27,358 nt of DNA from a virus: the IMG/VR virus record IMGVR_UViG_3300021403_000048, positions 1-27,358 of that record, one strand, 5' to 3'. A program made the translations under genes and the position numbers. The notes below the pieces were generated by a model that saw only the letters and a list, made by a program, of their open reading frames with translations, searched no databases and had not been told where the DNA came from. Of this stretch, positions 16,330-27,358 are shown piece by piece. Within the stretch, counting starts at the first letter, position 1, and each line of letters begins with the position of its first letter.

Positions 16330-16342
16330 TACTTTTAAAACA

Positions 16343-16366
16343 CATATTTATAAATAAAAATTATGA
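16343..16366 (+). promoter_or_regulatory. CATATTTATAAATAAA element before chaperone gene
   Basis: A 24-nt block running from CATATTTATA through the start codon is identical to the block at 20985-21008 before the portal gene, though the genes are unrelated. It also contains TATAAATA, the T4 late promoter core. It is likely a promoter joined to an A-rich translation start. Confidence 0.5.
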
Positions 16367-17037: not shown

Positions 17038-17246
17038 AAACAACAAAGAAATATATCAAGACAGAGACTGAAGAATTTAATGATACCTGGTATTGGTTTG
17101 AGACTCTTTTTGAGATGGCAGGAGAAGATTTGAGTAGAATGGATGAAGTAGCAGGAGAAAATTTGTATTCAATGCTTAACTTTTTACAGTACAAAATACA
17201 GAAGTCTCAATTACAAAATTATTTAGATAAGAAAAACAACAAATAA
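16945..17246 (+). CDS. Tail assembly chaperone -1 frameshift extension
   Basis: This open frame has no start of its own. It is entered by a -1 shift on T9 (slippery T-TTT-TTT, 16947-16953) near the end of the chaperone gene. It reads FFFAFKEGLQRDFPILYP, then a charged region, then TWYWFETLFEMAGEDLSRMDE and NLYSMLNFLQYKIQKSQLQ, stopping at TAA 17244-17246. The combined product would be 294 aa. The segment fills an otherwise empty 220-nt gap and reads as normal protein, so it is almost surely translated. Ribosomal frameshifting, polymerase slippage or a missed T in the homopolymer would each explain it. Confidence 0.72.
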
Positions 17247-17257
17247 ACAACAAAAAT

Positions 17258-17944
17258 ATGCAAGATAATAATGAACCAAAAAAGTTAGCCTGTTACAGAC
17301 TTCTTATTGACGAGAATGATGATACAGAAGTAAATTATATTTCTATGGTGGAGGACCCAGCTATTAAAATAGACTGGTTTGCATTTTCTAATGGAGATGT
17401 AAAACCAAAGGAACAAGAGTTTAAATTTAAGACTCTAAATAAGGAACACGCTGAGAAAAGAATGATTTCTGGTGTTTTTATGGTTCCTGATAAACCTATT
17501 TATCGTGTAGACAAAGAAAGTGGAGAAGAATATTTTGTGATGTTTACAGCCGATGATATAGAAAGAGCTAGAAATAAGTTTATGAAATCACGTTATAATA
17601 ATCAGATAGATACTGAGCATAACGAGATAGCAAATGGATGTTACCTGGTTGACACCTGGATTCTACGTGATGAAGATTCTAACCCTGTTAAGAAATATGG
17701 TTTTGAAAATATTCCTGTAGGTGCCTGGGTGGGAACAATCAAGGTTGATGACGATGCGATCTGGAACGATTTCATTAAAACAGGTAAAATTAAGGGTTTT
17801 TCTGTATCTGGAATGTTTAAATTCGGAAAAAAGTCACTTATTAATACGTTCAAAGATGAAAAAACACCTCATACATTCACAGCTGAGGAACTTAAATTCA
17901 TAAGTGATATAGCTGATTTTCTTCTGGATGACGAAAATATTTAA
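17258..17944 (+). CDS. Prohead protease, XkdF-like
   Basis: The 228-aa protein matches the XkdF-type serine protease family (Peptidase_S78_2) that cleaves scaffold and capsid during head maturation. Its N-terminus has YISMVEDPAIKIDWFAF, typical of the family. The catalytic His is in IDTEHN (His 121). The nucleophile Ser is in KGFSVSG (Ser 182 most likely), preceded by VGAWVGTIKVDDDAIW. Length is usual. It is followed by the scaffold-like and capsid genes, as in most phages with separate protease and scaffold. Confidence 0.85.
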   Translation: MQDNNEPKKLACYRLLIDENDDTEVNYISMVEDPAIKIDWFAFSNGDVKPKEQEFKFKTLNKEHAEKRMISGVFMVPDKPIYRVDKESGEEYFVMFTADDIERARNKFMKSRYNNQIDTEHNEIANGCYLVDTWILRDEDSNPVKKYGFENIPVGAWVGTIKVDDDAIWNDFIKTGKIKGFSVSGMFKFGKKSLINTFKDEKTPHTFTAEELKFISDIADFLLDDENI

Positions 17945-19787: not shown

Positions 19788-19813
19788 AAATACACTTTAA
19801 ATAAGAAAACAAG

Positions 19814-19847
19814 AAAGCTGCTGCAGAAAAAAGTGGCGGCTTTTTTT
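19814..19847 (+). terminator. Intrinsic terminator after major capsid gene
   Basis: AAAGCTGCTGC (19814-19824) pairs with GTGGCGGCTTT (19833-19843) through an 11-bp stem with G-U wobbles and an 8-nt A-rich loop, followed by seven Ts (19841-19847). It lies 27 nt after the capsid stop. Confidence 0.85.
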
Positions 19848-19881
19848 GCAATAAATTAACTAATTAAAACAAAAAAATAAT

Positions 19882-20974: not shown

Positions 20975-20984
20975 GATATAAATC

Positions 20985-21008
20985 CATATTTATAAATAAA
21001 AATTATGA
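20985..21008 (+). promoter_or_regulatory. CATATTTATAAATAAA element before portal gene
   Basis: This is identical over 24 nt, start codon included, to the element at 16343-16366. It lies in the 30-nt gap before the portal gene. Confidence 0.5.
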
Positions 21009-23125: not shown

Positions 23126-23308
23126 ATGGAACTATCACACGACACAACAAAACACATCTTACAAGTTATTGCAGTTAATATAGCTGCAATAAGTATCACC
23201 TGGAGCGATTTAAACAAGGCTCTGAGCACTCTATCTCTTGTCATAGGTATATCCTATGGTTTGTATAAATGGTGGAAGGAAATCAAATCAAATAAAAAGC
23301 CCAATTAA
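23126..23308 (+). CDS. Holin-like small membrane protein
   Basis: The 60-aa protein has two hydrophobic stretches (HILQVIAVNIAAISI and ALSTLSLVIGISYGLYKWW) and a positively charged tail (KEIKSNKKPN), as in small holins that open the inner membrane for lysis. I chose the ATG at 23126 because it follows an A-rich leader (CAAACAAACAAATCA), like most starts here. An in-frame ATG at 23102 would add eight residues and overlap the adaptor gene. The stop codon lies in the loop of the terminator that closes the operon. No endolysin is seen nearby. Confidence 0.58.
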   Translation: MELSHDTTKHILQVIAVNIAAISITWSDLNKALSTLSLVIGISYGLYKWWKEIKSNKKPN

Positions 23309-23319
23309 GGGCTTTTTTT
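23294..23319. terminator. Bidirectional intrinsic terminator between converging operons
   Basis: AAAAAGCCC (23294-23302) and GGGCTTTTT (23309-23317) form a perfect 9-bp stem with a 6-nt loop, flanked by an A-run and a T-run. It can end transcription from both sides. It contains the holin-like stop codon and abuts the end of the lipoprotein gene at 23318. Confidence 0.92.
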
Positions 23320-23737
23320 ATTTAATTGTATCTGTTACTGTGAACATTTCACCTCCTTGTGATGTCAAACTATATGTCTGTAGAATATTGTTGTTTAAAC
23401 GTGTTGTAATGAAGAAGTTTGAGCTGGTATGTATTCCATATACACTCTTAACTATATCTCCTTTCTTAACACAGATTGTTGTATCACCTGAGGTCATATA
23501 CGGAGAGAACCATCCCATAGGTGTCTTCTTCATATAGTATTCAATTGTATCTTTATTCAATATAAGTGCATTAACCATTCCCCCAGATGTAGAACAGGTT
23601 AGATGATAATTTGATGTCTGAGTTGTTGACGTTACAACACTTGGTTGTGTTATTGATTGCTTCTGACAGCTTGACATCATTGTCGCTATTAATACAAGTA
23701 TTAAGAATCCTATAATGTTATTGATGGTGTTTTTCAT
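23318..23737 (-). CDS. Phage-encoded lipoprotein
   Basis: The 139-aa protein starts with a lipoprotein signal peptide: MKNTINN, a hydrophobic core IIGFLILVLIATMM and the lipobox MSSC with Cys near residue 24. The mature part is short, Ser/Thr-rich and beta-like (TVTDTIK at the end), with further Cys residues. It would be attached to a membrane on the outer side. It is the last gene of the minus operon and converges on the holin-like gene. Candidate roles are outer-membrane spanin, superinfection exclusion or surface masking. Sequence alone does not decide. Confidence 0.72.
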   Translation of the reverse strand: MKNTINNIIGFLILVLIATMMSSCQKQSITQPSVVTSTTQTSNYHLTCSTSGGMVNALILNKDTIEYYMKKTPMGWFSPYMTSGDTTICVKKGDIVKSVYGIHTSSNFFITTRLNNNILQTYSLTSQGGEMFTVTDTIK

Positions 23738-23791
23738 TTGTCGTTGTTTTAGTGTTTATACTTAGTTATACGTGTTAATTAGCAAAAGGTT

Positions 23792-25265: not shown

Positions 25266-25886
25266 TTAGTTTTTAATAAATGTGTGTTTTCCTTTTCTAA
25301 CGTTTCTTAGAGAGCACAGTGGTTGGAAATTATACCATCTATTTGCCTCTTGTAATTCTTCTTCTGTATTAACATTTGCTATTGCCTTTCTGTGATCTAA
25401 TTGCCAAGTTTCATTTTCTTTTCCTGTAATCTTTCCCCAATTATTCCAATTCATCCAGGGTTTGAATTGTTGTTCTATATATTGTTTAAATTGTTCTATA
25501 GAACATCCTAGTAATTCTTCTGCTCTTATTATCTTCTTTGTCTTTTTTTTTAATATGAAGTTTTTCTTTTTATACTGAATAAGCGCTTGAGATACTATAA
25601 TTCTTAATTCAAACTTCTTCTTTTTAAACGGATCACGTTCTAGTTTTATAAGAAGTCGTCTTCTCGTTTCTTTTAGTTGATCTTTCGTCCTAGTTTGTTT
25701 CTTTATGTCTTTCTTTTCATATTCTATTCCAAGACAGTTATCAACATAACACCCATAAGCTATTATATTTCCTGTTAAGTGTTGTTCTTTAGTACGATAT
25801 TCTTTTTTTTGATAGAAGAACTTTTCACTTGTTTCAGTATTGGGGTTATTATACCATTCTTCATATGTCATTGGAATTGTTTTCAT
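25266..25886 (-). CDS. HNH homing endonuclease-like protein
   Basis: The 206-aa protein is basic in its first half, suited to DNA binding. The C-terminal half is an HNH nuclease: LLGCSIEQFKQYIEQQFKPWMNW (about 125-147), then TWQLDHRKAIANV with His 165, YNFQPLCSLRNVRKGKH with Asn 186 or 195 and His 201. This is the phage HNH type with the LGCS and LQPL-like landmarks. It probably nicks or cuts DNA and behaves as a selfish gene. A minus-strand CTATTTATTT string lies just before its ATG, possibly a promoter of its own. Confidence 0.8.
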   Translation of the reverse strand: MKTIPMTYEEWYNNPNTETSEKFFYQKKEYRTKEQHLTGNIIAYGCYVDNCLGIEYEKKDIKKQTRTKDQLKETRRRLLIKLERDPFKKKKFELRIIVSQALIQYKKKNFILKKKTKKIIRAEELLGCSIEQFKQYIEQQFKPWMNWNNWGKITGKENETWQLDHRKAIANVNTEEELQEANRWYNFQPLCSLRNVRKGKHTFIKN

Positions 25887-25938: not shown

Positions 25939-26174
25939 TATTTCTTTTTAGACCTCCTGTTAGCCAGGAACTCTTCTAGTTCATTTGACTCTCTCCTAGA
26001 CATCTTGTGCATTGTTGTAAGCGCCCACTGTCGTTCTTTCTGAGCCTTCTGTTGAGCTTTCTTCCAGTTCTCAAATGATTCCTCAAGGAAGTGTAGTTCT
26101 TCTAATTTACGTGCAATACTGTCCTCGTAATTTGCACATATTTCTTCGTGGTAATATTCTTTTGTTTTGCTCAT
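25938..26174 (-). CDS. Small coiled-coil protein
   Basis: The 78-aa protein is almost wholly helical and charged (LEELHFLEESFENWKKAQQKAQKERQ), with a basic end (NRRSKKK). It follows AAAAACAACCACTATG. I do not recognise a family. Size and charge would suit a nucleic-acid or protein-binding early phage protein, but this is only a guess. Confidence 0.58.
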   Translation of the reverse strand: MSKTKEYYHEEICANYEDSIARKLEELHFLEESFENWKKAQQKAQKERQWALTTMHKMSRRESNELEEFLANRRSKKK

Positions 26175-26185
26175 AGTGGTTGTTT

Positions 26186-26551
26186 TTAGAACGATTTAAG
26201 TATGATTTTTTTCCAGTAATTGTCCCTGCATTGTTCCCTTACACGATCTATGTGTTTCATCATATATTCGTGTGCATAATCCTTCAATCTCTTGGCGACC
26301 TTTGGGTCCTTCTTGTAGTTATGCATATAGTTTGTAATATACTTCCTGCTCTTCTCTGGATTCTCTGCTCTGTATTTGGCAGCTTGAGCTCTAAGTCTAT
26401 CTCTTTCTCCAGGTATAGTCTGTCTCCTAAGCGTTTGATATATGTTGATACACTTCTTACAGGAGTGTCCACGTCCATCACGACATAGTTTGATCTTTCT
26501 GAAGTCTTCAATTGGTTTAATTTCACCACACTTTCTACATTCTTTTTTCAT
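26186..26551 (-). CDS. Zinc-ribbon DNA-binding protein, homing-endonuclease-associated type
   Basis: The first 35 residues of this 121-aa protein have the pattern CRKCGEIKPIEDF, then RDGRGHSCKKC, with CxxC pairs at about 5/8 and 31/34. This is the zinc-binding module often found at the N-terminus of phage HNH proteins. The rest is basic and helical (Lys, Arg and Tyr-rich). No HNH or GIY-YIG catalytic core is visible, so it is either a degenerate homing gene or a stand-alone DNA-binding protein. It starts 2 nt after the 55-aa gene. Confidence 0.68.
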   Translation of the reverse strand: MKKECRKCGEIKPIEDFRKIKLCRDGRGHSCKKCINIYQTLRRQTIPGERDRLRAQAAKYRAENPEKSRKYITNYMHNYKKDPKVAKRLKDYAHEYMMKHIDRVREQCRDNYWKKIILKSF

Positions 26552-26553
26552 AA

Positions 26554-26721
26554 TTACTTTGTTAAAAATTTGTTCAGTTCTTCCGTTTCTTTCTTAATAG
26601 ATTTGGTCTTTTTTCTTCTTCCAGTGATTCCCATCTTGAACATTTCTGCTTCGAACTTTGCCATACATTCATTCTTGTGATTTATTCTGGCAAATTGTTG
26701 TTTGTTTAGTGCTTGTGTCAT
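26554..26721 (-). CDS. Small basic protein, unknown
   Basis: This 55-aa frame starts MTQALNKQQFARINHKNECM and continues through FKMGITGRRKKTKSIKKE to FLTK. Its start overlaps the preceding stop by ATGA, and its stop lies 2 nt before the zinc-ribbon gene, so it fits the operon exactly. It is strongly basic and helical. No family is recognised. Confidence 0.62.
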   Translation of the reverse strand: MTQALNKQQFARINHKNECMAKFEAEMFKMGITGRRKKTKSIKKETEELNKFLTK

Positions 26722-26906
26722 TTTAGTTTTGTTATTAGTTTTTCAATAACCATTATTTCTTTCTTATATTCTTTAATGAACATTAGTTTAGGTTTTGATT
26801 CATTTTCTTCTGATTCTATTCTATCAAGAAAGCAATCTCTCTTTACATTGATTGCATCTAATACTTGTTCTAGTTCTTGTTTTGTTAACTTTACTGTCTT
26901 GCTCAT
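26718..26906 (-). CDS. First gene of minus operon, small helical protein
   Basis: The 62-aa protein starts MSKTVKLTKQELEQVLDAIN after AAAAACAACAAAA, a very good start context. An upstream in-frame ATG at 26933 lacks that context and lies close to the promoter, so I reject it. The protein is helical and charged (KLMFIKEYKKEIMVIEKLITKLK). As the first gene behind a consensus host-type promoter, it is probably made early in infection. No family is recognised. Confidence 0.62.
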   Translation of the reverse strand: MSKTVKLTKQELEQVLDAINVKRDCFLDRIESEENESKPKLMFIKEYKKEIMVIEKLITKLK

Positions 26907-26956
26907 TTTTGTTGTTTTTATGAAGAGCTTCACTGCTACTTCTATTAATATATAGT

Positions 26957-26987
26957 CAAAGATATTTCTTATTAATCTAAATACAAA
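26957..26987 (-). promoter_or_regulatory. Bacteroidota-type promoter of minus operon
   Basis: On the minus strand TTTG (26987-26984) is followed by 19 nt and TATCTTTG (26964-26957), a perfect fit to the Bacteroidota consensus TTTG-N19-TAnnTTTG. Transcription would start near 26950, about 45 nt before the first gene. Two more TAnnTTTG strings overlap just upstream (26984-26991, 26998-27005). Confidence 0.8.
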
Positions 26988-27027: not shown

Positions 27028-27062
27028 AAAAAAAAGGAGCCCAGGTTTCCTTCCTGAGCTCC
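27028..27062 (-). terminator. Intrinsic terminator of candidate small RNA
   Basis: On the minus strand GGAGCTCAGG (27062-27053) pairs with CCTGGGCTCC (27045-27036), with one G-U wobble and a 7-nt loop. Eight Ts follow (27035-27028). Confidence 0.9.
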
Positions 27063-27141
27063 AAACTAAAACAACAAAAACTCCAACTTCACTATTTATA
27101 TCTACATCCTTGAGAAGAGAACGACCACTTCTGGGATGACT
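27028..27141 (-). ncRNA. Candidate phage small RNA
   Basis: A Bacteroidota-type promoter (27177-27147) and a strong intrinsic terminator (27062-27028) frame about 110 nt on the minus strand. The longest start-to-stop frame inside is a few codons (for example a GTG frame of eight codons), so no protein is likely. The next gene downstream has its own promoter below the terminator, so the unit seems independent. It could be a trans-acting RNA, or an attenuated leader with regulated read-through into the operon. Confidence 0.55.
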
Positions 27142-27146
27142 TAATG

Positions 27147-27177
27147 CAAAGATACATTATATTATTCTAACTTGCAA
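27147..27177 (-). promoter_or_regulatory. Bacteroidota-type promoter of candidate small RNA
   Basis: On the minus strand TTG (27177-27175), 20 nt, then TATCTTTG (27154-27147). The -7 element is the same octamer as in the operon promoter at 26957. Start of transcription would be near 27140. The -33 element lies in a CTTGCAAG palindrome (27171-27178). Confidence 0.75.
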
Positions 27178-27184
27178 GTATTAT

Positions 27185-27237
27185 TTTTACGGTTTATCGC
27201 AAAAGTTATTGTTTATTTTACGGTTTATCGCAAAAGT
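27185..27237. repeat. Twin 22-bp operator-like direct repeats
   Basis: Two identical 22-bp copies that start TTTTACGGTTTATCGC and end AAAAGT lie at 27185-27206 and 27216-27237. Their 31-bp period is close to three helical turns. Each unit is an imperfect dyad (TTTTxCG...CGxAAAA). They lie directly upstream of the -33 element of the small-RNA promoter, so a regulator bound there would face one side of the DNA. Nothing else codes in this stretch. Confidence 0.75.
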
Positions 27238-27250
27238 GTTAATAGGACTT

Positions 27251-27358
27251 TCAAAATTTGCAAGTCCATAAAAATCTTTTACTCATTTTGCAAATGGCTT
27301 GGTTTATATAATTTCTTAGACTATTTTTTATTGAGTTTAGAGCAAACAGGTTTACCAT
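27251..27358 (-). CDS. Possible partial ORF at window edge
   Basis: A minus-strand frame enters from the right edge (an ATG lies exactly at 27358-27356) and stops at 27251. It encodes 35 residues, beginning MVNLFALNSIKNSLRNY and ending in TCKF. It may be the end of a gene beyond the window, or chance. The rest of 27063-27358 holds the promoter, repeats and a GGACTT/AAGTCC inverted repeat (27245-27267). Confidence 0.2.
   Translation of the reverse strand: MVNLFALNSIKNSLRNYINQAICKMSKRFLWTCKF

Follow-up and report, generated by a model that had tools for sequence, protein, structure and literature searches.

Short terminated RNAs from phage control regions, such as lambda OOP and prophage DicF, act on mRNA by pairing; OOP overlaps its target and is antisense to it, and DicF acts on host mRNAs. 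In the IstR-1/tisB type, the small RNA lies beside the gene whose translation it blocks, with membrane toxins as targets and divergent genes. FopS and GibS of Bacteroides thetaiotaomicron (PMC11697453, PMC7366714) carry a seed at the 5' end and a Rho-independent terminator, and pair with the first gene of a polycistron at its start region; FopS is transcribed from a sigma-ABfr promoter and targets polysaccharide-utilisation operons. BTnc201 (MasB), a narrowly conserved host RNA of about 100 nt with a 5' hairpin, a U/G-rich linker and a terminator, contacts its target with positions 41-50 and 69-74 (PMC10994844), the target site being located about 40 nt inside the coding region. In a full-text literature search, with subscription papers mostly outside its scope, no account of a small RNA encoded by a Bacteroidota phage came up.

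The window analysed here (27,358 nt) covered an IMG/VR virus record from end to end, in which terminase, tail, head and portal genes followed one another on the plus strand, and ten small genes formed a minus-strand operon extending from 26906 down to 23318, with a bidirectional terminator-like hairpin standing between the two (Table 1). No Shine-Dalgarno sequences were present and the start regions were A-rich. The portal protein was 27% identical to that of Nonlabens phage P12024S, and by this protein P12024S and P12024L were the nearest cultured Bacteroidota phages. Together with the promoter type described below, these features support the label of Bacteroidota phage given in the first-pass annotation. 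Three relatives possessed capsid proteins of about 66% identity, only one of which, G001 (33 kb), spanned the region upstream of the minus operon. A search for relatives of the 62-aa protein of the first operon gene found none. Within the operon, the C-terminal part of the protein predicted at 25266-25886 (minus) was about 53% identical to that of a gene at L027:2410-3030 (plus) in relative G003; the differing place and strand are consistent with a mobile endonuclease gene. The genes starting at 16363 and 21005 shared the upstream stretch CATATTTATAAATAAAAATTATGA (16340-16365 and 20982-21007, plus), and words similar to CATTTATA preceded several other genes. These words are possibly a phage-specific promoter or processing signal; G001 carries a gene for a sigma-like factor.

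Table 1. Features of the small-RNA locus, its predicted targets and the associated genes
Feature	Position	Strand	Remarks
Distal repeat copy (ACTTTTGCGATAAACCGTAAAA)	27216..27237	minus	imperfect palindrome, centre about -84
Proximal repeat copy	27185..27206	minus	identical to distal copy, centre about -53
P1, TTG-N20-TATCTTTG	27147..27177	minus	Bacteroidota sigma-ABfr type; consensus from PMC7366714
Predicted small RNA	27028..27143	minus	about 112 nt; start ±3 nt, 3' end within T run; placed from P1 and terminator
5' hairpin of predicted small RNA	27105..27138	minus	
Anti-start linker (seed), GUUUUUGUUGUUUUAGUUUG	27062..27081	minus	
Intrinsic terminator	27028..27062	minus	10-bp stem and 8 T
Operon promoter P2, TTTG-N19-TATCTTTG	26957..26987	minus	
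Pairing site, first operon gene start region (AAAACAACAAAAA)	26906..26918	minus	-12 to A of AUG
First operon gene	26718..26906	minus	62 aa, no family; predicted target (-8.8 kcal/mol)
Pairing site over AUG of second operon gene	26716..26729	minus	-8.3 kcal/mol
Second operon gene	26554-26721	minus	
Pairing site upstream of last operon gene	23741..23753	minus	-9.3 kcal/mol
Last operon gene	23318-23737	minus	lipoprotein-like
Bidirectional terminator-like hairpin	23294..23317	both	ends minus operon and plus structural operon
Head maturation protease gene	17258-17944	plus	
Weaker pairing site upstream of head maturation protease gene	17245..17257	plus	-7.5 kcal/mol

The published Bacteroidota promoter consensus consists of TTTG at -33 and TAnnTTTG at -7 (PMC7366714). 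On the minus strand, the near-consensus host promoter noticed in the first-pass annotation was present as P1, composed of TTG (27177-27175), a 20-nt spacer and TATCTTTG (27154-27147), with CTTG instead of TTTG as the -33 box, and the operon had, as claimed, its own promoter, P2, located 190 nt beyond P1 and just past the terminator of the small-RNA unit. Only these two sites, the P2 one at 26986, matched TTG-N19-21-TATCTTTG on both strands of the record, against 0.15 expected in shuffled sequences. By their match to the consensus, P1 and P2 look like primary host promoters, and P1 lies directly upstream of the transcribed part as the TTTG/TAnnTTTG elements do in sigma-ABfr-driven small RNAs. 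The likeness between the two promoters extended beyond the boxes to 19 of 24 nt (26957-26980 versus 27147-27170) and may reflect a common origin or a shared regulator.

The terminator stem (27062-27028) contained 7 G-C pairs in its 10 bp. When strong terminators were defined by seven T after a stem with 7 or more pairs, 5 or more of them G-C, only two were found in the record, against 0.01 expected, which bears out the strength ascribed to this one. The second was observed after the capsid gene (19810-19850, plus), where a stem was followed by TTTTTTT at 19841. Between P1 and the terminator, the only start-bearing frames were two GTG frames of 8 codons, and a longer open frame lacked ATG, GTG or TTG; the description of about 110 nt devoid of a sizeable ORF thus stood, with the start now placed near 27143 and the length at about 112 nt. 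A terminator of its own and the lack of an ORF are shared with sigma-ABfr-driven intergenic small RNAs. The predicted fold had a z-score of -2.2, to which the terminator was the main contributor. It is quite probable that the promoter-RNA-terminator unit yields a discrete transcript.

No Rfam family reached its threshold with this RNA. The best weak match was BTnc201 (MasB, RF04177), with 24.2 bits against a gathering score of 105 and with broken pairs; rteR scored 16.9 against 72 bits, and the FopS/GibS family model was not among the Rfam matches up to E = 10. By its sequence, the predicted small RNA is not a member of FopS, GibS, MasB or rteR.

A repeat search over the region revealed that the linker repeats, in inverted orientation, the start of the first operon gene and the nucleotides just before it. 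The perfect match covers 13 nt, and was equalled in none of 500 shuffles of the small RNA and none of 1000 shuffles of the target; apart from these two sites, its 11-mer core AAACAACAAAA occurred in the record only just upstream of gene 17258. This pairing was spotted post hoc, not predicted in advance. Unconstrained duplex energies were not exceptional and proved uninformative, the signal being swamped by long G-U-rich pairings, and scoring was therefore restricted to ungapped helices, with the cost of opening each of the two RNAs taken into account; the linker, partly paired within the small RNA, cost 3.1 kcal/mol to open. In the target prediction against phage start regions, a check proposed in the first-pass annotation, the last, first and second operon genes ranked top, in that order, among 30 start regions. 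The head maturation protease gene came fourth, so that 4 of the 30 lay between -9.3 and -7.5 kcal/mol; among 300 internal coding windows, none scored better than -6.5 kcal/mol.

Controls in which the hairpins were kept and the linker alone was scrambled brought at least 3 of the 10 operon starts to -8 or lower in 3 of 1500 shuffles, and gave a first gene scoring as well in 15 of 1500; at least 4 of the 30 starts at or below -7 were obtained in 6 of 200 shuffles. Predicted pairing of the linker with the adjacent operon is significantly above chance, and the wider target set is suggestive. In Flavobacterium, translation initiation relies on adenines at -3 and -6 and on the surroundings of the start being unstructured (PMC6847099); the linker would cover this very stretch.

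We infer from these elements, and from the above-chance complementarity, a stand-alone phage small-RNA gene that is transcribed and whose product pairs in the cell and represses its neighbour. Host RNA polymerase would start from P1 near 27143 and halt at the terminator (27028-27036), producing an RNA of about 112 nt composed of the 5' hairpin, the U-rich linker and the terminator hairpin. The linker would pair with the A-rich initiation regions of the first, second and last (lipoprotein-like) operon genes, blocking ribosome entry and thereby tempering expression of the adjacent minus operon. Transcripts reading through from P1 would carry the linker in cis and fold over the first start, so that only P2 transcripts would be freely translated. 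A regulator acting at the twin repeats upstream of P1, from an activator-like position or shared with a divergent promoter, probably sets the timing. That the phage small RNA represses the neighbouring operon by blocking ribosome entry, in the manner of FopS in Bacteroides, is, for the mechanism taken in full, a proposition to which we give about even chances.

Compared with FopS and GibS, this RNA is alike in possessing a seed and a Rho-independent terminator and, with FopS, in its sigma-ABfr promoter; pairing with the start of the first gene of a polycistron is likewise predicted from the sequence, above chance. It differs in that no sequence match was found, the seed lies in the linker and not at the 5' end, the RNA is phage-borne and the predicted target is the adjacent operon, unlike the polysaccharide-utilisation operons regulated by FopS. 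Length, 5' hairpin, linker and terminator resemble those of MasB, whereas MasB is a host RNA with an intragenic site. Unlike those of OOP and DicF, the RNA and its predicted target are in tandem on the same strand; in contrast to the IstR-1/tisB type, the 62-aa product, encoded in tandem with the RNA and not divergently, has no toxin-like feature.

It is also conceivable that the small RNA exists but acts on host mRNAs, or on a protein, and that the match to the operon merely reflects a U-rich seed meeting A-rich starts. Some such complementarity is generic in Bacteroidota, where A-rich start regions are general (PMC6847099), and the start regions of other phages reached -7 in 3 of 91 cases, which indicates that part of the pairing effect is generic; the layout also recalls host RNAs such as BTnc201 (MasB), which pairs through its linker region. 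However, other phages' start regions paired well less often than those of this record (4 of 30), and three of the ten operon starts outscored all 300 internal windows, an outcome given by only 3 of 1500 linker shuffles. This reading is considered unlikely.

Less is explained if the unit is an insulator, that is, a promoter that works for the repeats or for an adjacent unit, followed by a terminator, which yields a short RNA devoid of function. Searches of phages, plasmids, viral contigs and 395 Bacteroidota genomes indeed turned up nothing homologous to the block or its transcribed part, and so no covariation. DNA similarity searches in phages and plasmids gave nothing meaningful, and a linker 22-mer had no match in viral contigs. 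Matches of the small-RNA DNA in the 395 genomes were 19-29 nt long with E of 0.003-0.008 per genome, which is chance level for so many genomes, and the capsid profile had no match in the same genomes. The small RNA is known from a single sequence. An insulator would leave the linker complementarity unexplained, and we consider it improbable.

The first-pass annotation offered an attenuator leader with read-through into the operon as the alternative to a small RNA. P1 would then count among the main promoters of the operon, which would be controlled by how often transcription is allowed past the terminator. The terminator does precede the operon on the same strand, and one 8-codon GTG frame ends just before it. 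Nevertheless, a near-identical operon promoter follows the terminator directly, and the leader fold contained no mutually exclusive antiterminator, nor a leader peptide coupled to one. In the predicted read-through RNA, the linker paired with the first start region with a probability of about 0.95 per base pair, and the first start site was unpaired with a probability of 0.06, against 0.92 in the P2 transcript; with a scrambled linker the average was 0.77, and none of 200 scrambles was as low as 0.06. By this model the read-through transcript would sequester the first operon start site in cis. Read-through, the productive form of an attenuator, would thus hide the first start, and the attenuator was judged weak and quite improbable.

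The twin repeats were present as described, two identical 22-nt copies 31 nt apart, each an imperfect palindrome TTTTGCG-N6-CGTAAAA, and no further copy with up to 3 mismatches occurred elsewhere in the window (0 expected). The proximal copy stops 8 nt upstream of the -33 element and the promoter core is not overlapped, which speaks against a repressor operator pair. The first-pass reading of an independent small RNA is favoured by its own promoter, strong terminator, lack of an ORF and linker complementarity; its regulation by twin operators is unproven, as the repeats lie wholly upstream of the promoter and their position does not imply that role. Such a location would suit an activator, or control of a divergent promoter, better than it would simple repression. 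Searches with an exact repeat 20-mer in viral contigs gave one chance match, in a ParA-like gene, and those with the tandem repeat core in genome contigs gave 18 loci, each of them an unrelated repeat array or coding repeat. The twin repeats, being exact and direct, set in A+T-rich DNA and spaced by 31 nt or near three helical turns, recall replication-origin iterons with the RNA as replication primer or control RNA. This reading is highly improbable: the repeat has no more than two copies, the record shows no recognisable replication initiator, and nothing ties the RNA to replication.

Beyond the repeats, TTTG-N22-TCATTTTG with one mismatch was observed on the plus strand (27257-27290), a weak candidate for a divergent promoter, maybe serving a plus-strand gene past the record end. 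A minus-strand frame at 27358-27251 may belong to the end of a gene lying upstream. The corresponding side in G001 carries a plus-strand sigma-like gene.

In G001, this sigma-70-like gene diverges from the minus operon, whose genes also differ from those of the record; absence of the block there is therefore uninformative. The matching place was occupied by a 740-nt non-coding region with terminator-like repeats (L026:6946-7687, G001 25946-26687, minus), which contained several AAAAAGGTGCARTTC repeats in both orientations and had a predicted fold z-score of -4.5. An element in it was complementary, over 17 contiguous pairs (3 G-U), to the start region of the first gene in the G001 operon; 4 of 500 shuffles of the region were as good, and the predicted cis fold did not form this pairing. 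Found post hoc, it is a weak second case. In the leader of the G001 minus operon (L026:6900-7030, minus), alternative hairpins CUGGG...CCCAG and UUCUCAC...GUGAGAA were predicted beside the start, a possible RNA switch.

A broader and rather doubtful picture is one in which the seed mirrors the phage's own start signal and targets several operon genes in trans and the read-through mRNA in cis. This would amount to an RNA brake fitted to a phylum without Shine-Dalgarno sequences, and G001 may have independently evolved a comparable anti-start element at the same place. For the predicted small RNA of this record, a concrete seed and concrete targets can be named, beyond a mere promoter-terminator pair. 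If the proposal is true, the phage would use RNA pairing at Shine-Dalgarno-free starts to time its own genes.
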